Source of the DNA: Bacteroidota bacterium
Lineage (GTDB): Bacteria; Bacteroidota; Bacteroidia; Bacteroidales; Paludibacteraceae
Assembly (NCBI GenBank): GCA_030706455.1
Contig: JAUZOL010000020.1
Coordinates: 1 to 34,341, forward strand
Reading direction: 5' to 3'
Length of the DNA: 34,341 nucleotides
This document shows, one piece after another, positions 1,657 through 19,088 of the stretch. The position numbers were made by a program, and so were the translations under genes. The notes below the pieces were generated by a model, which ran no database searches, was not told the origin of the DNA, and saw only the letters and a program-made list of their open reading frames with translations. Numbering within the stretch: the stretch's first letter is position 1; every line of letters starts with the position of its first letter.

Positions 1657-3213
1657 ATGCAATCCCTTCAACTGACCCTTTCGCCCGAACAGGCGCACAC
1701 CCCCGAGTTGTTGAAACAGGCTGTAGCCAAAGCGCTTTCGTTGCCTCCGACACAAATATCACATATTCGTCCTGTCCGTAAATCGATTGATGCCCGCGGA
1801 CGATTCGTCAAAATAAATCTATCCGTAGAGGTTTTTACCGGCAAAGAAGCCATCACCTCCGATACCATACCCTTGCATTATCAGGATGTAACCAACAAGG
1901 AGGAAGTAATCGTGGTGGGTGCTGGTCCTGCCGGTTTGTTTGCCGCGCTGCGACTGATTGAACTTGGCCTGAAGCCGATTCTTCTGGAACGCGGGCAAGC
2001 GGTGACCGAACGCAAAAGAGACCTTGCCCAAATGATCCGTAGCAATACTCTGAATCCCGAATCGAATTACTGTTTCGGTGAAGGCGGCGCCGGAGCTTTC
2101 TCCGATGGCAAACTCTATACCCGATCCAAGAAAAAAGGAGATGTACAACGCATTCTCTCTATCTTTCACCGGCACGGAGCTCAGGATGAGATTTTGTACG
2201 AAACCCACCCGCACATCGGTACCGACCGCCTGCCACAGGTAATCAAGGCCATGCGTGAAACGATTCTGGAACATGGAGGCGAAGTACGTTTCAACACCAA
2301 AGTCACGGGACTAAAGGTAGAAGATTCCCAAATAACCGGAGTGGAACTGGGAGACGGAAGCTCGCTTAAAAGCAAAGCGGTGATTCTGGCTACCGGTCAT
2401 TCGGCCCGCGACGTTTATCATCTTTTGCACAATAACAATATTGCTCTCGAAGCCAAAGGTTTTGCGATGGGCGTGCGGGTTGAACATCCGCAGGAACTGA
2501 TCGACAGCATTCAATACCATCGTCGCGAGCGGGGAGAATTTCTTCCGGCGGCCGCCTACAATCTGGTGGAACAGGTCGACGATCGCGGGGTTTATTCGTT
2601 TTGCATGTGTCCCGGTGGGCATATCGTTCCGGCTTCTACCGGCGCCAAAGAACTTGTGGTAAACGGCATGTCGGCATCACACCGCAACTCGCCTTTTGCC
2701 AATTCAGGCCTGGTGGTCGAAATCCGCCCCGAGGATTTGGGCGAGTATCAGCAATATGGCGTGTTGGCCGGATTGCACTTCCAGCAATACGTGGAAGAAC
2801 TGGCCTTTTTCAATAACGGCAGCAAAGGATTGACTGCTCCGGCACAGCGCGTAGGCGATTTCGTCAAAGGAAAACTCTCCGGTTCGTTACCCGACTGTTC
2901 CTATCTTCCGGGGGTACTCTCTTCCCCACTCCACTTTTGGTTACCACAACATATTTCCGGCCGCCTGCAACAAGGCTTTAAGAAATTCGACCGCAAAATG
3001 CACGGCTACCTCACCAACGAAGCATTAATTGTGGGTGTTGAGTCACGCTCTTCATCTCCGGTGCGCATTCCACGCGATATTGAAACCTATCAACACGTGC
3101 AGATTAGCGGACTATTCCCATGCGGCGAGGGAGCCGGTTATGCCGGAGGAATCACTTCGTCAGCCATCGACGGAGAGAATTGCGCGGCAGCGGCAAAACG
3201 GTATCTGGAATAA
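1657..3213 (+). CDS. NAD(P)/FAD-dependent oxidoreductase (COG2509-like dehydrogenase)
   Basis: This 518-residue flavoprotein has an N-terminal domain of about 75 residues, then a dinucleotide-binding motif VVGAGPAGLFAALRLIELG (residues 86-104; GAGPAG is the GxGxxG loop) ending at the acidic ERG that binds ribose. Other recognisable blocks are ESNYCFGEGGAGAFSDGKL, VILATGHSARDVY (second FAD contact), CMCPGGHIVPAS, and the C-terminal FPCGEGAGYAGGITSSAIDG that closes over the flavin. The set fits the uncharacterised FAD-dependent dehydrogenase family COG2509, common in Bacteroidota and cytoplasmic. The physiological substrate is not known. It is monocistronic: its own promoter lies upstream and a weak hairpin follows. 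The start is set by the promoter at 1603-1635. Confidence 0.88.
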   Translation: MQSLQLTLSPEQAHTPELLKQAVAKALSLPPTQISHIRPVRKSIDARGRFVKINLSVEVFTGKEAITSDTIPLHYQDVTNKEEVIVVGAGPAGLFAALRLIELGLKPILLERGQAVTERKRDLAQMIRSNTLNPESNYCFGEGGAGAFSDGKLYTRSKKKGDVQRILSIFHRHGAQDEILYETHPHIGTDRLPQVIKAMRETILEHGGEVRFNTKVTGLKVEDSQITGVELGDGSSLKSKAVILATGHSARDVYHLLHNNNIALEAKGFAMGVRVEHPQELIDSIQYHRRERGEFLPAAAYNLVEQVDDRGVYSFCMCPGGHIVPASTGAKELVVNGMSASHRNSPFANSGLVVEIRPEDLGEYQQYGVLAGLHFQQYVEELAFFNNGSKGLTAPAQRVGDFVKGKLSGSLPDCSYLPGVLSSPLHFWLPQHISGRLQQGFKKFDRKMHGYLTNEALIVGVESRSSSPVRIPRDIETYQHVQISGLFPCGEGAGYAGGITSSAIDGENCAAAAKRYLE

Positions 3214-3224
3214 CATTTTACATT

Positions 3225-3251
3225 CAGGCTGCCACCCCCAATGGCAGTCTG
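3225..3251 (+). terminator. Possible terminator hairpin after the FAD oxidoreductase
   Basis: CAGGCTGCCA (3225-3234) pairs with TGGCAGTCTG (3242-3251) over ten positions with one G-T wobble and a 7-base loop. No clear T-run follows, so termination is uncertain. Confidence 0.4.
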
Positions 3252-3316
3252 ATTTACATTCATTTCTCCTCAATATTTAAAAGAATATAAAAACAAACTC
3301 CCTGTCGCACCATTTA

Positions 3317-3333
3317 CTACGAAACATTCGTAG
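3317..3333. promoter_or_regulatory. Predicted BlaI-type operator palindrome
   Basis: CTACGAA-ACA-TTCGTAG is a perfect 7+3+7 inverted repeat 51 bases before the repressor start at 3385. BlaI/MecI repressors bind TACA/TGTA-like dyads as dimers; the TAC...GTA core fits. Its right end shares three bases with the -7 box at 3331-3338, so bound repressor should block RNA polymerase. Confidence 0.65.
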
Positions 3334-3338
3334 ATTTG
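3331..3338 (+). promoter_or_regulatory. -7 promoter box of the blaI-M56 operon
   Basis: TAGATTTG matches TAnnTTTG. It begins inside the right arm of the operator palindrome. It predicts a transcript start near 3344, upstream of the ATG at 3385. Confidence 0.55.
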
Positions 3339-3384
3339 CGACGTGATAATAATGGCCGTTTTATTACAGAAAGAAAAAACGATT

Positions 3385-3747
3385 ATGGAAAAACTGACAC
3401 CACAGGAAGAACAAGCCATGCAGGCGCTCTGGAAACTCAAGGAGGGCGGAGTTGTTAAGGATATTCTCGAAACCTATCCCGAACCACAGCCTCCCTACAC
3501 CACTCTTGCTTCGACAATGAAAAATCTGGAGAAGAAAGGGTATGTCAAAAGTCGCCGCTATGGCAATGTTTACTGGTACGAACCTGCATTGAGCTCCGAA
3601 AGTTATTCGGAAAAAATGCTTTCGGGCATTATCGACAATTACTTTCAAAGCTCCTACCGTTCGCTGGTAGCCTTCTTTGCTAAAAATGAGAAGATTTCGC
3701 GCGACGATCTGGAAGAGATCGTGAAATTGATCGAAAAACAGAAATAG
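3385..3747 (+). CDS. BlaI/MecI/CopY-family transcriptional repressor
   Basis: This 120-residue protein begins MEKLTPQEEQAMQALWKL, the usual opening of BlaI-family winged-helix repressors. The wing-helix block ILETYPEPQPPYTTLASTM / KNLEKKGYVKSRRYGNVYWYEP spans about residues 25-68. The C-terminal half is helical and would dimerise and hold the protease-sensitive site. A longer frame opens at 3343, but that GTG sits at the predicted transcript start, so I chose 3385. The stop codon and the start of the M56 gene are one base apart, showing co-transcription and probably translational coupling. By analogy with BlaI/BlaR1, the repressor represses its own operon until the M56 partner triggers its cleavage; the inducing signal is unknown. 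Confidence 0.9.
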   Translation: MEKLTPQEEQAMQALWKLKEGGVVKDILETYPEPQPPYTTLASTMKNLEKKGYVKSRRYGNVYWYEPALSSESYSEKMLSGIIDNYFQSSYRSLVAFFAKNEKISRDDLEEIVKLIEKQK

Positions 3748-3748
3748 T

Positions 3749-5341
3749 ATGGCACCTTTTACGCTCTATCTGTTGAAAGCAAACGGGGTGTTTATCCTGC
3801 TGTTTGCATTTTACCTGCTGTTTCTGCACCGCGACACTTTTTACAAAGCCAAGCGGGTGTATCTGCTGGGAATCATTGTGGCATCGGTTCTTTTGCCGCT
3901 GTTGCGTCCCGCGGCGCTCATTCCTCAAAAAGAAAGTGTACAGTATGTCATTCTGCTGGTCGGCGATTCGCTGAACAATTTGGCTCGTCCCGAAACATTC
4001 TCTTTGAGCACGATGCAATTAATCGATCTGTCGCTCTGTGTTGGAATTGCCGGAAGTCTGCTGCTTTTGCTGTTTCGTTATTTACAACTATGGTGGGTAA
4101 TGCGGCGTTGCAGAGTGGTTTGCTACGGTAATCAGAAAGTGTACGTTCCTGCGAAAGAGCTTAATCCGTTCTCGTATCAGGGGCGGATATTCCTCAATCC
4201 GGAACTGTACACAGAAGAGGAACTGGTGAGAATCATCCGGCACGAGCAGGCTCATATCGATCAAAAGCACGGAATCGATCTGATGCTGGTAGCGTTTTTT
4301 CAATCGTTGGTATGGATGAACCCGTTGTATTACTGGTTCGCACGTTCGGTACGCGAGAACATTGAGTTTCTGGCAGATCAACAGGTGTTGCGATCGGGAC
4401 AGGATCCGAAAGCATACCAGTATGCTTTGCTGAAAGTGGCTCAAAGCAGCTCGCTGCCACTGACTCAACATTTCAGTATTTCACACTTAAAAAAACGCAT
4501 TATCATGATGAATAAAAAACGCACCCACTCGCTGTGGACCAGCAAATACCTGCTGGTAGTACCTTTATTAATTGGAACCCTACTCGTTGTCAACGCAAAA
4601 GAGCTGAAAGATGCCTGGAGCAATGCCGATTTTTCTCAGCAAAGTCAATCCAAAGCAAGTTTGACATCTAGAGAAGACTCATCCTCACAAGACCAATCCG
4701 CATCACAATCTGAATCGACTGGTGACTCAATAAAACAAGTTACACAGAACGTAATCGTCCTACATACCGATCAGAAGAAATCATCAGAAGATCCGTTGAT
4801 TATTGTCAATGGCAAAGTGATTTCGAAAAAAGAGATGGAAAAGCTTGATGAGAAGTCAATCACAGCCATTGATGTATTAAAAGACAAAAATGCGATTTCG
4901 AAATTTGGAAAGAAAGGAAAAAACGGCGTTATTATCATCTCTACACAAACGACGAACGTACCTAAAGCAACGACCACTGTTGAGGTAAATTCGTCAGATA
5001 AGAAACAAAAACAGGTTTCAATATCCATCCTTAGACAAGGAGATGAGAACATGAATCATGTGGATACTATTGTCGAAGTATCTAATGATAAATACGGCAT
5101 TGCAAAAAGTAAAAAACAAAATATTATTGCAGTACGGGAATTTAAAAAGGTTCCGGCTCCCTCTCTCTACATTCTGGATGACAAATTTATCTCCAACGAG
5201 GAATTTTCAAAAATAGATGTAAAGACAATCCAGAAAATTGACGTATTGAAAGGTGAAACGGCAGAACAAAATTATGGCCCAAAAGCGAAAAATGGGGTTA
5301 TTATAATCACTACTAAAAAATTAAATACGGAAGAAAAATAA
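3749..5341 (+). CDS. M56-family (BlaR1-like) membrane metallopeptidase with two TonB-plug-like repeats
   Basis: This 530-residue protein has hydrophobic segments near residues 5-26, 36-52, 92-113 and 267-283, typical of BlaR1/MecR1 sensor proteases. The zinc site is HEQAH (165-169); the third ligand is probably E206 in ENIEFLADQQ. Beyond the last membrane segment, the exported part is not a penicillin-binding domain. It holds two copies of a module: residues 349-399, with PLIIVNG, ITAIDVLKD and KNGVIIIST, and residues 471-522, with SLYILDD, IQKIDVLKG and KNGVIIITT. Each resembles the end of a SusC/TonB-receptor plug. A Ser/Gln-rich linker (about 295-330) joins membrane and repeats. The role is inferred to be sensing an envelope signal and inactivating the adjacent BlaI-type repressor. 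Confidence 0.88.
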   Translation: MAPFTLYLLKANGVFILLFAFYLLFLHRDTFYKAKRVYLLGIIVASVLLPLLRPAALIPQKESVQYVILLVGDSLNNLARPETFSLSTMQLIDLSLCVGIAGSLLLLLFRYLQLWWVMRRCRVVCYGNQKVYVPAKELNPFSYQGRIFLNPELYTEEELVRIIRHEQAHIDQKHGIDLMLVAFFQSLVWMNPLYYWFARSVRENIEFLADQQVLRSGQDPKAYQYALLKVAQSSSLPLTQHFSISHLKKRIIMMNKKRTHSLWTSKYLLVVPLLIGTLLVVNAKELKDAWSNADFSQQSQSKASLTSREDSSSQDQSASQSESTGDSIKQVTQNVIVLHTDQKKSSEDPLIIVNGKVISKKEMEKLDEKSITAIDVLKDKNAISKFGKKGKNGVIIISTQTTNVPKATTTVEVNSSDKKQKQVSISILRQGDENMNHVDTIVEVSNDKYGIAKSKKQNIIAVREFKKVPAPSLYILDDKFISNEEFSKIDVKTIQKIDVLKGETAEQNYGPKAKNGVIIITTKKLNTEEK

Positions 5342-5361
5342 TTCTCTGCCGTCAAATACAA

Positions 5362-5405
5362 AAATCCTGCTGTAGAAAATCAGTTTTTACAGCAGGATTT
5401 TTTTC
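5362..5405. terminator. Terminator between the M56 gene and the GH28 gene, probably bidirectional
   Basis: AAATCCTGCTGTA (5362-5374) pairs perfectly with TACAGCAGGATTT (5388-5400) around a 13-base loop and is followed by T's on the plus strand. It lies between convergent genes. The A's before the left arm give a T-run on the minus strand too. Confidence 0.85.
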
Positions 5406-5424
5406 GTTTGTAACATCTCAATTT

Positions 5425-6849
5425 CTATTTCAACTCATACAGAGGATTTGAGGGTTGAATCATCTCCGGCACTTTCGGCGCATCAATCTTCACTGCGCCG
5501 GCCAGTCCTTTACCCGTCACGCTATTGATGCTCAACAAGGGTCCGTCGAAACCGCTCACGTTGATGTTGTCCAGATTGGCATTTTGGATATTAGCCAGCG
5601 ATATTCCTTTTTTGCAGGTTCCACTCACGTCGGTCAAAGTAAATCCTTGCAAAGGTTTTAGCGGATGTACGCTGGTTCCGTCTACCAAAACCGGCACTTC
5701 ATGCACCTTCACCCGCGAAAAGCTAAAATTCCTGACGGTCGGAATCCCATCCATTCCGGGAACCGGAAATTGATCCTGAATACCGCTTCCCAACAGATTG
5801 AAACGCAGGAATCCGCCTTCGGTACCGGCAACTTCTATATCCTCCACTTTAATATTTTCGATAAAAGCGCCCCGTCCCGGTCGGCTCTTGATATAGATGG
5901 CATGGGTTTTAGCGTAGGTAAACTTGCAGTTGCGAATCACCACATCGCGGATACCACCCGAAGTTTCACTGCCAATACCAATACAGGCAAAAATCGAATC
6001 GGCAAAGGTACAATTGGTGATGGTGACATCTTCGGTGGTACGCAGCAAGGTGTAGCCTTCCATTCCACGACCCGATTTCAGCGAGATACAATCGTCGCCG
6101 GTAGCAATGTCACAATTGTCAATCTTAACATGCTTGCAAGAATCGACATCGATGCCGTCGCCGTTACCACCAGTACTGCGGATCGTCAGGTTTTTAATCG
6201 TAATATTGTCGCAATAGGTAGGATGAATGGACCACATCTGATGATAATCGGTCGAGAAATCTTCTAAGCGAATACCCCGACAGCCAAGAGGTTCGATCAA
6301 AGCCGGATGACGCAGCGGATTTTGCGCATTGGGGCGACCGCCCAGGGCATGGCATCCCTTAATTTTCCCGGAACCGACAATCCCTATATTCTCGGCATCG
6401 ACAGCATAAATCAGCCCGACATGACCCTGAATCCATTTACCTTCCCAGCGCACCTGCATCACAAGATAGTCGGCAAAATCGGGGCTACCGGTAAGTACTG
6501 CATCTTTCTCCAAACGAAGCAAGGTATTCGATTTGAGAGCAATCCCGCCAATCAGGTAATTACCGCTCGGCACAAGCACTTCGCCTCCATCCAGCACCCA
6601 ACAGCGGTCGATTGCTTCCTGAATGGCCACCGTATCTTTGGTGACACCATCGCCTTTTGCGCCAAAATCACGGATATTAAGCTTGACTTCGTTTGGTGTG
6701 GTGGCACTTTTTTGCGCCGGCTTGGTTTGTTTCTTATTCTTTACGGACTGCGCACCGGCAATTCCGGGAATGGATCCCATTATAGGAGCTGCAAGCAAAC
6801 CGGCACCTGCTATTTTCAAAAATTTTCTTCTTGACGTGTTTTGGGTCAT
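5425..6849 (-). CDS. Glycoside hydrolase family 28 protein (polygalacturonase-like, probably exo-acting)
   Basis: This 474-residue protein starts with a Tat-type signal, SRRKFLK (6-12) followed by a hydrophobic stretch to AGA-Q (about 34), so it is exported folded. The body is a right-handed beta-helix of GH28: RDFGAKGDGVTKDT at 60-73, then the catalytic blocks NGDGIDVDS (D231), TGDDCISLKSG (D252, D253), GIGSETSGG (293-299) and HAIYIKSRPG (K321). These correspond to NTD, GDD, GHG and RIK of classical polygalacturonases. The GSE form in place of GHG is common in bacterial exo-polygalacturonase and rhamnogalacturonase branches, so exo activity on pectic substrates is my inference. It reads in the same direction as the GH13 gene 133 bases upstream; the two may be co-transcribed or independent. 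Confidence 0.9.
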   Translation of the reverse strand: MTQNTSRRKFLKIAGAGLLAAPIMGSIPGIAGAQSVKNKKQTKPAQKSATTPNEVKLNIRDFGAKGDGVTKDTVAIQEAIDRCWVLDGGEVLVPSGNYLIGGIALKSNTLLRLEKDAVLTGSPDFADYLVMQVRWEGKWIQGHVGLIYAVDAENIGIVGSGKIKGCHALGGRPNAQNPLRHPALIEPLGCRGIRLEDFSTDYHQMWSIHPTYCDNITIKNLTIRSTGGNGDGIDVDSCKHVKIDNCDIATGDDCISLKSGRGMEGYTLLRTTEDVTITNCTFADSIFACIGIGSETSGGIRDVVIRNCKFTYAKTHAIYIKSRPGRGAFIENIKVEDIEVAGTEGGFLRFNLLGSGIQDQFPVPGMDGIPTVRNFSFSRVKVHEVPVLVDGTSVHPLKPLQGFTLTDVSGTCKKGISLANIQNANLDNINVSGFDGPLLSINSVTGKGLAGAVKIDAPKVPEMIQPSNPLYELK

Positions 6850-15956: not shown

Positions 15957-18900
15957 TTAAAATGTCAGATTTAAGCCAAATGTAACCTTCTTAGATGTAG
16001 GATATGTACCCATATCAAAACCAGCTGAAGAAGCTGTGGTAGTAGTAGCAGTTTCAGGATCGCATCCAGGATAGCTTGTAATGGTAAAGAAGTCATCCAA
16101 AGACACATAACATCTCAATTTACTAATGAGTAATTTCTTGGTTATAGATGCAGGAAGGGTATAACCTAGCTGTATCTGTTTGATTTTGAAGTAAGCTCCG
16201 CTGAATATAGAAGCTGAAGAACCCCAGAAATGCCAATCGTTAACTACAGCCTTTGGATCTGGCATGGAAGCATTTGTGTTGGTTGTTGTCCAGGCATGGT
16301 CATAATAGTACTTCAATGAGTTAGTCATCGGAGTATCAGCACGGTAAAACGTATTAAAGATATCATTACCACTTACACCGGTACCAAATACGTTCATATC
16401 GAATCCTTTATAGGCAAGATTAATGGTAAGACCGTATGTGAAATCAGGAATTGCCTTACCAATATAGGTCATATCAGAAGCAGTAGGCACCCCGTCTGCA
16501 TTTTTAGTCTGGTAGATAGGTTTACCTGTTTCATGATTAACGCCTAAATATTTATATCCTTTGAAATACCAGATCGGTTGACCAACCTCAAATGCTGTAT
16601 AGATAGGGTTATTGCCACCAGTAGTACCAATAATAGGTTTAGAAGCCGAAGGATCGAGATAAGTAACTTCATTGTGTAAGGTAGAGAGGTTAGCTTTTAC
16701 TGAATAGGTAAAATCTTTCCCGATTTTATCTTTCCATGTTGCCTCGAATTCTAAACCACGGTTAAGCACATTACCTCCATTAATAGTTGTACTACCTACG
16801 CCAACTTCTGCAACCGGACTAATAGATACGAGCAAGTCTTTGGTCTTTTTATTATAGTAGTCCAAAGAAAAAGCAAGCTTATCATTCAAAAATCTCATAT
16901 CAACACCAAGGTCTAACTGTTCTGAAGTTTCCCATTTCAAGTTGGGGTTCGCCAATCCATTAGGTGCCGAACCATATGTAGCAGCGCCATCATTTACCCC
17001 ATACTGATACCATGAGCTATTATAAGAGATAGTAGTGTTATATGCATAACCGCTGAGTACATTGATATTCCCATTTTGCCCCCACGATCCACGGAATTTC
17101 AAGAAAGAGAAAAGTTTGTCATCAACAAGACTCGAAAAGAATTTTTCGTTGCTGGCGGTCCAACCTGCAGAGAATGATGGGAAATAACCCCAACGGTTTT
17201 TTGGTGACAATTTGGAAGAGTCGAACGCATCAGCACGGAAGTTAGCCTGAGCGGTATATCTGTTGTCATAATTATAAACTAACCGTCCAAAATATGACAT
17301 CTGGGTCGATTTACCGGGAGCATTGCCAAAACTCTTAACCGTTTTTTCAGTTGAAACACCAGTGGAAGGATCCTTGACCATATTACTTTTTACATAGTCA
17401 ATATAGCGGAAGTTAGGATCATATCCTGACAGGATATCCGGGCCCGTAGCGCTGGCGCTAACATTATCCCAGTTATTTTCGGTGTAAGACATACCACCCA
17501 TTGCAGTGATGTTATGCTTATCTATGGAAAAATTATAGTTGGCAAAGTTTTCCCACTGATAATAGTAACTGGTATTTGCAGTTGCCGATATGTTATAGTT
17601 ATCGCTTTTTGCCTGAGATGTGGCATAATATGGAGTACTATAGCTGTGCGAATTGCTCTGTGACACACGGTAACCAAAGCGAGAAGTAACTACGAGCCCC
17701 TTAACTGGTTTGAAATTTCCGAAAAGTACACCACGAAGGTTAATACCGCTATTTGAAGCATCAGTAAGATCTCTTTGAAGCAATGGGTTACCATTATTAT
17801 CGATTACATATTTGGAAGTGGCATAATAGAGGCCATTGGTTGGGTCTTTGAGGATAGTCTTACCTGCATCATAAGCCTGCTTTGTCCCTGCAGCGAACTG
17901 ATCTGGAGAAGAATAGTAAACAGGGGTTAATGGATCCATCTGCATCACGCAATTCATCAATGAACCGTACTGAGACATCTGACTAACTGATTTCGTTTTC
18001 CAATATTCGAAAGAGTTATTGCCTCCTATCTGTAACCACGGTTTGATATTATAGTCAGCATTAACCTGAGCTGTAATACGTTTATAAACATCCTTATTAC
18101 CTTTTACAATACCATCGTTGTTGGTTACGTTAAGAGACGTAAAGAAATGTCCCTGGTTATTTCCACCCTGAAACGTAACTGTATGTTGTTGGCTTAAGGA
18201 AGGGCCAAATACTGCTTTGAACCAGTCTGTATCTGTACCATTGTAATTATTTGCTGTTAACTGATTAGCGATAGGGAGACCCGACAATTTTTTGTAAGCA
18301 ATAAAATCCTGTGCATTAAAAATTTCAGGACGTTGGGCAAGGCTCTGGCTGATAAAACTAGCATCATAAGAAATGCTTGAAGTACCTTTAGCTCCCGATT
18401 TAGTAGTGATCAAAACGACACCGTTACCAGCCTCCGCACCATAAATAGCAGCAGAAGCAGCATCTTTCAATATCTCCATTGATTCAATCATAGAAGGATC
18501 AAGATACTGAATGTTGTCAACTTTAAGACCATCAACGATAAGGAGAGGCCCAATATTACCGGAGTTTGAAGAGTAACCACGTACACGGATAGTTGCACCC
18601 TGACCAGGAGCACCCGAGTTACTCAAAACCTGAACACCGGAAACCTTACCCTGAATAGCTGCTGCTGCATCACTGGTGGATAAGTTCTTAAGAGCATCGG
18701 AACGAACTGAAGATACAGCTCCCGATAGGTCACTTTTCTTCATGGTACCGTAACCGACAACTACAACTTCATTCAACTGTAAATTATCCGGGACGAGTTT
18801 GACATTGATTTCTTTTTGATTAGACACTACAATGTCTTGGGCTTTATAGCCAATAAATGTGAAAGACAAAGTGGCTTTCGCATTGATATTGATTTGGTAC

Positions 18901-19088
18901 TGCCCTTTCAAATCGGTCATGGTACCTGTCGTGGTTCCTTTTATGTGTACATTCACTCCCGGAACTGGAGACCCAGTCTCGTCGACTACTACACCCTTAA
19001 CCAGACCGGTCTGAGCATAAGTAAAAAACGACAAGAGCAACATAGGCAGCATCATAAATACTACCCGCACTAACTTGTTTCTTTTCAT
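15957..19088 (-). CDS. SusC/RagA-family TonB-linked outer-membrane transporter
   Basis: The 1043-residue protein has a signal peptide ending at about AQ (residue 26) and a carboxypeptidase-like beta-sandwich at about 28-100 (VKGVVVDETGSPVPGVNVHIKG). The SusC signature LNEVVVVGYGTMKKSD lies at 105-120. The plug runs to about 232 and ends IESMEILKDAASAAIYG, GNGVVLITTKSG. The rest is a 22-strand type beta-barrel ending in the aromatic residue of LNLTF, as expected for BAM substrates. It imports a glycan or other oligomer with energy from TonB/ExbBD. susD follows directly. No canonical -7 box was found in the roughly 800 bases upstream, so a dedicated regulator is likely. Confidence 0.97.
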   Translation of the reverse strand: MKRNKLVRVVFMMLPMLLLSFFTYAQTGLVKGVVVDETGSPVPGVNVHIKGTTTGTMTDLKGQYQININAKATLSFTFIGYKAQDIVVSNQKEINVKLVPDNLQLNEVVVVGYGTMKKSDLSGAVSSVRSDALKNLSTSDAAAAIQGKVSGVQVLSNSGAPGQGATIRVRGYSSNSGNIGPLLIVDGLKVDNIQYLDPSMIESMEILKDAASAAIYGAEAGNGVVLITTKSGAKGTSSISYDASFISQSLAQRPEIFNAQDFIAYKKLSGLPIANQLTANNYNGTDTDWFKAVFGPSLSQQHTVTFQGGNNQGHFFTSLNVTNNDGIVKGNKDVYKRITAQVNADYNIKPWLQIGGNNSFEYWKTKSVSQMSQYGSLMNCVMQMDPLTPVYYSSPDQFAAGTKQAYDAGKTILKDPTNGLYYATSKYVIDNNGNPLLQRDLTDASNSGINLRGVLFGNFKPVKGLVVTSRFGYRVSQSNSHSYSTPYYATSQAKSDNYNISATANTSYYYQWENFANYNFSIDKHNITAMGGMSYTENNWDNVSASATGPDILSGYDPNFRYIDYVKSNMVKDPSTGVSTEKTVKSFGNAPGKSTQMSYFGRLVYNYDNRYTAQANFRADAFDSSKLSPKNRWGYFPSFSAGWTASNEKFFSSLVDDKLFSFLKFRGSWGQNGNINVLSGYAYNTTISYNSSWYQYGVNDGAATYGSAPNGLANPNLKWETSEQLDLGVDMRFLNDKLAFSLDYYNKKTKDLLVSISPVAEVGVGSTTINGGNVLNRGLEFEATWKDKIGKDFTYSVKANLSTLHNEVTYLDPSASKPIIGTTGGNNPIYTAFEVGQPIWYFKGYKYLGVNHETGKPIYQTKNADGVPTASDMTYIGKAIPDFTYGLTINLAYKGFDMNVFGTGVSGNDIFNTFYRADTPMTNSLKYYYDHAWTTTNTNASMPDPKAVVNDWHFWGSSASIFSGAYFKIKQIQLGYTLPASITKKLLISKLRCYVSLDDFFTITSYPGCDPETATTTTASSAGFDMGTYPTSKKVTFGLNLTF

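Follow-up and report, generated by a model that had tools for sequence, protein, structure and literature searches.

A BlaR1-type M56 protease with a variable tail of TonB-receptor plug halves in a genome of the Paludibacteraceae

In the 34,341-nucleotide stretch of DNA analysed here (the window; contig JAUZOL010000020.1 of the draft assembly GCA_030706455.1, which has 340 contigs and is 94.8% complete), a membrane protease of the M56 (BlaR1) type ends in a tail made of two copies, each of about 52 residues, of the C-terminal half of a TonB-receptor plug. More surprising than these modules is the arrangement to which they belong—a variable tail on a constant relay. We propose, as a reading that falls somewhat short of probable, that a constant BlaI/M56 relay carries an exchangeable tail that reads TonB-dependent receptors or their handlers. 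Throughout, G denotes genomes (G000 is the window's own), L fetched loci, and C contigs of the window's genome; the closest relatives bearing a genus name are the Paludibacter records L230 and L228, so the window probably derives from Paludibacter or from its family.

The protease gene (positions 3749..5341, + strand; 530 aa) matches Pfam PF05569 at 53.8 bits (cut-off 31) and lies one base downstream of a blaI repressor gene (3385..3747, + strand; 120 aa), which is matched by Penicillinase_R (PF03965) at 94.8 bits (E 5.7e-27, query 3388–3744); BlaI thus stands as the partner that a previous reading of the sequence alone (the sequence-only reading) had named. We assign the protein to the M56 family from this profile match, its HExxH motif, four hydropathy peaks and the BlaI partner in its operon. 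The zinc site, HEQAH at residues 165–169 (4241..4255, + strand), has H165, E166, and H169 invariant across a six-member M56 alignment, and the hydrophobic peaks fall at residues 8–26, 40–58, 91–109, and 268–286. This core (residues 1–282; 3749..4594, + strand) is 93–99% identical among four sister species, and the tail starts at about residue 285. Pfam gave no match to a penicillin-binding sensor domain in the protein up to E 1, and the NCBIfam equivalog model for BlaR1 scored 35.2 bits against a cut-off of 400; together, these results rule out a beta-lactam sensor identity, as the sequence-only reading had surmised. PMC9834060 describes BlaR1 as having an Nout–Cout topology and as cutting BlaI directly, with a signal on the exported sensor releasing the protease. 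By analogy, the tail of the window protein is assumed to be exported to the periplasm, and the protease would be expected to cleave BlaI.

The two modules span residues 349–400 (module 1; 4793..4948, + strand) and 473–523 (module 2; 5165..5317, + strand). The claim that they resemble TonB plugs was borne out by the NCBIfam signature of SusC/RagA receptors (TIGR04057), which the whole protein matches in two stretches at 59.6 bits (E 1.8e-16, cut-off 46.2), each module on its own scoring below that cut-off (33.1 and 37.4 bits). The Pfam Plug family (PF07715) is borderline, with 22.1 bits for the whole protein and 24.2 for the tail alone (cut-off 23.9), and module 1 alone has no Pfam match. The best Plug stretch covers profile positions 41–107 of 107, or about half a plug; a complete plug (positions 1–107) is not present in the window protein according to Pfam. 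Matches by phmmer to the SusC homologues 6zlt and 5t3r in the PDB (E about 1e-3) point the same way, and the window's own SusC (15957..19088, − strand) contains the similar string PLLIVDG...MEILKD...GNGVVLITTK, with 34% and 37% identity to the two modules, which are 51% identical to each other. Profile comparison, the check proposed earlier, therefore places the tail with the plug family (TIGR04057, PF07715) rather than with an unrelated one; a chance motif is ruled out by these matches, with the predicted fold as weaker support. Other receptor parts were not recovered from the window protein: there is no V[VI]GY Ton-box motif in the tail, no beta-barrel family by Pfam up to E 1, and no TonB C-terminal domain in profile searches.

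An AlphaFold prediction from 13 aligned tails shows two small domains at pLDDT about 90–93 (about 90 for module 1 and about 92 for module 2 of the window protein), joined by linkers that are mostly below 60. In structural alignments, module 1 superposes on the plug of the SusC protein BT1763 (Z 5.0, rmsd 1.9 Å over 56 residues) and module 2 on that of YncD (Z 4.8, rmsd 2.3 Å over 53 residues). TonB receptors take the first three rows (BT1763, YncD, and FyuA at Z 4.0), with a small margin over unrelated rows, which begin at Z 3.9. Foldseek likewise places TonB receptors in its seven best rows, with weak E-values of 0.24–2.3 and no match below E 0.001 for the modules. Structure prediction, the second check put forward in the sequence-only reading, gave a fold compatible with a plug half, with TonB receptors at the top of weakly scoring lists; the predicted fold agrees with the plug profile and could not carry the case by itself.

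The TIGR04057 signature has 43 matches in the draft genome at E ≤ 0.01, two of them inside the window M56 gene and most of the others within open frames of at least 900 aa. Pfam typed three of the signature-bearing frames, that on C3 as an alpha-2-macroglobulin and those on C268 and C2 as TonB receptors; the matches on C81 and C185 fall in shorter frames, 234 and 501 aa long. The alpha-2-macroglobulin (1870 aa; L377:76-5685) carries a SusC-type N-terminal domain, the string LDEVVVVGYG, and an inserted plug, with no barrel family among its Pfam matches. Since this protein of the same genome also bears a plug module, the module may be a general docking piece.

The tail is hypervariable at the DNA level. 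Compared with L004 (G033), the window aligns at 92.8% over 2292–4633 and at 90.7% over 5331–6521, with no alignment over the intervening segment (4634..5330, + strand); the same segment is unalignable to L005, with flanks of 94.7% (3270–4635) and 85.9% (from 5331), so that flank identities across both loci range over 86–95%. Identity with L006 is 89% up to 4656; beyond this point a single 67-base patch aligns within the tail, and no more than 63 bases align behind the tail. The M56 cores of the window and L004 are 99% identical (dS 0.12), whereas their modules are 47% and 43% identical, with dS of 2.8 and saturated; background dS between G000 and G033 is 0.57 for an ABC gene and 0.28 for an outer-membrane gene. 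Rapid protein evolution would not by itself bring silent sites to saturation, so the simplest reading of this divergence is that the tail segment was replaced. L127 offers an independent case, in which tandem blaI-M56 operons share 98.0% DNA identity over 1449 bases (blaI plus core) and have tails that are 36% identical; tandem copies with differing tails in L095 (87%) and L099 (88%) are weaker cases. A search of 358 family genomes, with two candidates scored per genome, found no other full-length match to the tail that could be its donor or a silent copy. The third-position GC content (GC3) of the tail is 0.33, against 0.55 for the core; this is not decisive proof of foreign origin, as the window's SusC and SusD-family genes are equally low (0.36 and 0.30).

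We considered 94 M56 pairs whose cores share 80% identity or more and compared the 36 in which core dS was under 1: tail dS was higher than core dS in 29, saturated in 4, and not higher in 2, with no tail in the last. These pairs are not independent, and the M56 core changes more slowly than other genes to begin with, so a moderate excess of tail dS elsewhere may mean little. The sequence-only reading had taken duplication of the module as a sign of a selected function. As put, that argument is weak, given how much further the tail has diverged than the remainder of the gene; what stands is that both modules persist, recovered by profile, in all five aligned sisters. That reading did not mention the tail's variability, the operator, or the modular family of tails.

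A survey of related M56 proteins placed this tail among a family of alternatives. Loci were drawn from the family, order, and phylum, together with 80 named records alike to the window protein, and the survey sample consisted of best hits and hand-chosen cases, not a random draw; at E ≤ 1e-6, PF05569 occurs in 159 of 247 genomes at the level of the order and in 123 of 247 at that of the phylum. Tail classes were assigned with profiles seeded by the window modules and by L002, the locus of the second M56 protein of the window's genome, whose TonB C-terminal domain (67.3 bits) lies behind the string VDEVVVVGYG. Plug modules, which the sequence-only reading had suggested looking for in other M56 tails, occur in 47 of 204 distinct survey proteins, and TonB C-terminal domains in 90: 63 tails have a TonB domain but no plug half, 20 have plug halves but no TonB domain, 27 combine the two, and 94 have neither. 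The two modules come in either order and in up to three copies. Among 274 tails, 18 have a SusC-type N-terminal domain, 17 of these together with a TonB domain. The Ton-box-like motif V[VI]GY[GSDA] was found in 11/27 tails with both parts, 3/63 with TonB only, 1/20 with plug only, and 1/94 with neither, against shuffle expectations of 0.04–0.11 across classes (0.08 for both, 0.06 for neither). For comparison, PMC7782687 gives the Ton box of BT1763 as DEVVVTG and states that its Ton-box mutants grew on levan as poorly as a strain without SusD. Four different parts of one transport system therefore recur in related M56 tails.

Individual tails add further detail. Those of L279 and L299 have a SusC-type N-terminal domain ahead of the TonB C-terminal domain; the L279 tail also contains a Ton-box-like motif, and that of L299 a plug half behind (by our own profile, not Pfam). 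Docking in cis of the Ton-box-like segment on the TonB domain of L279 was unsupported by the model, with pLDDT below 50 there. Two other M56 proteins are joined to a cell-wall enzyme: that of L174 carries Amidase_3 (117.7 bits) and that of L120 carries M23 (112.1 bits). No relative was confirmed among 35 pattern matches in viral contigs.

Upstream of blaI lies a predicted BlaI operator, the palindrome TACGAA-ACA-TTCGTA (3318..3332, no strand assigned), which is conserved at this position in L004–L007 and L009. It overlaps a promoter −7 element, TAGATTTG (3331..3338, + strand); the −7 consensus is TAnnTTTG. In genus sisters, TACGAA-N3-TTCGTA is fused to TAGATTTG upstream of blaI, and in the draft genome the only exact copy of TACGAA-N3-TTCGTA is the operon's own. 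Across 274 distinct M56 genes, blaI lies just upstream in 252 and does not in 17, with too little sequence in 5; we scored 250 of the 252 loci (upstream DNA was short in two) for the palindrome from 150 bases upstream to 30 bases into the called blaI frame. Of the 250, 88 have TACGA-N5-TCGTA in this interval, where shuffles give 0.04, and the other 162 do not. By tail class, survey loci with the palindrome numbered 12/25 for both parts, 9/57 for TonB only, 8/18 for plug only, and 1/83 for neither—that is, 29/100 for TonB-type tails versus 1/83 for others (Fisher p 8.5e-8); the corresponding counts for named records were 1/1, 9/10, 46/54, and 2/2. Among 86 loci with the palindrome, the most frequent arrangement, seen in 43, has a TTG 19 bases upstream of the −7 element, which usually puts the palindrome between the promoter elements and on the −7. 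Many of the relatives listed have a second dyad after the palindrome. The second blaI-M56 pair of the window's genome (L002:511-567, contig C302) has a palindrome of its own, two copies of GACTA-N6-TAGTC, one adjoining a −7 box; this form is conserved in G033 (L226) and was not found in L225 of G114.

The operator also marks a second gene within the genus. The extended pattern TACGA-N5-TCGTA-N2-TTTG has exactly two exact sites in each of G000, G033, G078, and G093, one at the blaI-M56 operon and one at an orthologous outer-membrane gene, whose product in the window's genome (813 aa) matches PF14905 (283 bits), a plug (32.7 bits), and CarboxypepD. The orthologue, at 89% identity or more, occurs in four of eight genus genomes, with the operator in front in all four; it was not found at E ≤ 1e-150 in G060, G104, G114, or G121 (the last 78% complete). 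Its four paralogues (38–41% identity) have no palindrome within the 1.5 kb fetched, and G104, which is without a close M56 relative, has no exact site of the extended pattern. At up to one mismatch, a reversed-pattern control gave two matches in G000, equal to the real pattern, so what counts for this result is that the sites are exact, the genes orthologous, and the positions shared. Beyond the genus, 18 family genomes contain 17 exact sites of the extended pattern, versus 2 for the reversed control. Thirteen of these sites lie immediately before blaI, and the remaining four precede other genes, none of them a receptor. These four precede thioredoxin-like genes (L330 in G001; L334 in G147) and TPR genes (L344 in G024; L340 in G072), and in G001 blaI follows the thioredoxin-like gene in line. 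A second exact site with a −7 box in G114 (L329) lies before a DUF2807 gene.

Looser sites do not extend this set. TACGAA-N3-TTCGTA at up to one mismatch has 12 sites in the window's genome, including the operon's own, versus 18 for the reversed control, so a wider regulon drawn from this count alone would be meaningless; nine of the other 11 lie inside called ORFs, the tenth (L212) is just before a frame read as a ribosomal protein and has no −7 box adjoining it, and the last, on C134, is intergenic and does have that box. Genes of the PF14905 kind also lie directly downstream of M56 in L174 (240 bits by Pfam), L189, and L072 (both by phmmer), and similar genes lie near M56 in L077 and L229 (phmmer); profiles found neither plug nor TonB module in the M56 tails of these five loci. 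Because exact sites are few and precede blaI, thioredoxin-like, TPR, DUF2807, and receptor-like genes, the regulon, as predicted, looks small, local, and of the envelope type, and the receptor-like target looks like a feature of the window's genus.

These observations can be assembled into a mechanism. BlaI, bound to TACGAA-N3-TTCGTA across the −7 box, would repress its own operon and, likewise, the TonB-receptor-like outer-membrane gene. The M56 protein would act as a membrane antirepressor with four helices, a protease facing the cytoplasm, and a periplasmic C-terminal tail whose two plug-half modules on flexible linkers would form the sensor. Its partner would most likely be a periplasmic handler of TonB-dependent receptors—TonB, a receptor, or an outer-membrane assembly factor—and on meeting it, the protease would cut BlaI and allow the envelope genes to be made. 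The relay would stay constant, and its signal would be determined by the tail, an exchangeable cassette. We infer that the signal comes from TonB-dependent receptors or those handling them, because relatives have other transport parts at this position, namely TonB domains, Ton-box-like motifs, and SusC N-terminal domains, and because a TonB-receptor-like gene in the genus has the operator in common. The sequence comparisons also suggest that tails may have been exchanged. A stronger version, in which the BlaI/M56 relay is invariant and cassettes of TonB-transport parts are swapped whole between species and tandem copies, seems to us possible, if rather doubtful.

The proposal made in the sequence-only reading, that the protease senses TonB-dependent transport, has thus acquired circumstantial support from related tails with TonB domains, Ton-box-like motifs, and SusC N-terminal domains, and from recurrence of the predicted operator before a receptor-like gene in four genomes of the genus, but the window protein is itself without a Ton-box motif or TonB domain, and the additional operator sites beyond the genus stand in front of thioredoxin-like and TPR genes instead of receptors. 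Those targets weaken the TonB reading and strengthen its main rival, which is that the tail senses the cell wall or the general state of the envelope, with plug halves and TonB domains serving as mere periplasmic docking pieces unlinked to TonB transport. The Amidase_3 and M23 fusions, the DUF2807 site of G114, and the alpha-2-macroglobulin with its N-terminal domain, Ton-box motif, and plug all sit well with such a general sensor. It accounts less readily for the recurrence of four parts of a single transport system in the tails, for the enrichment of Ton-box-like motifs where TonB domains and plugs occur, and for the operator before a receptor-like gene, and we judge it on balance unlikely.

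Rapid turnover of the tail would be accounted for if it were an integrated decoy, mimicking receptor parts attacked by phages, bacteriocins, or other TonB-targeting agents and reporting the attack. The unalignable tail DNA between well-conserved flanks in L004 and L005 and the divergent tails of the near-identical L127 copies are in keeping with this; such variability has other possible causes, however, and with the viral contigs yielding no confirmed relative, we regard a decoy as improbable. We give the same low standing to the idea that the tail has little sensory role and merely evolves fast, with the protease controlled through its core. The linkers, modelled at low confidence and 31–42% identical between the window and L004–L006, would fit that idea, but the modules do not: both are retained by all five aligned sisters, and their dN/dS is 0.12–0.22 in the 4 of 12 comparisons with computable dS.

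The M56/BlaI switch is of a known kind, and BlaR1-type sensors are known for beta-lactams. As in BlaR1/BlaI and MecR1/MecI of Staphylococcus, a membrane M56 zinc protease is paired with a BlaI-type repressor and has an exported C-terminal sensor (here assumed); the window protein differs in its tail of two plug halves, with no penicillin-binding sensor found, and in the targets predicted for its switch, namely the operon itself together with a TonB-receptor-like gene. Its modules share with the plug of SusC/RagA receptors a sequence signature and, on weak scores, a similar predicted fold of the C-terminal half, but the protein is without the barrel, the N-terminal plug half, and the Ton-box motif of such a receptor. 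TonB/BlaR1-like fusions were reportedly described by Chu in 2007, and related M56 proteins of Bacteroidota, including L002, do end in TonB C-terminal domains; unlike these fusions and TonB proteins, the window protein has plug halves and no TonB domain. In FecA/FpvA-type systems, a TonB receptor signals to anti-sigma factors. The proposed switch would similarly pass the state of an outer-membrane receptor to transcription, but through a protease and a repressor, with no sigma or anti-sigma factor, and with the receptor part in the sensor itself. Among the matches listed, the open-access literature had nothing on M56 proteins with plug tails, on the TACGAA-N3-TTCGTA operator, or on a signal for M56 proteins with TonB-type tails; the plug-tail form is, within those matches, without a description.

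Bacteroidota are rich in TonB receptors, and if the tails read TonB-dependent transport, the state of a receptor could be relayed directly to gene control in this phylum. The conserved palindrome points to candidate promoters, and the variable tail amounts to a natural domain-swap experiment; if cassettes do swap, a lineage could change the step of outer-membrane transport to which its switch responds.
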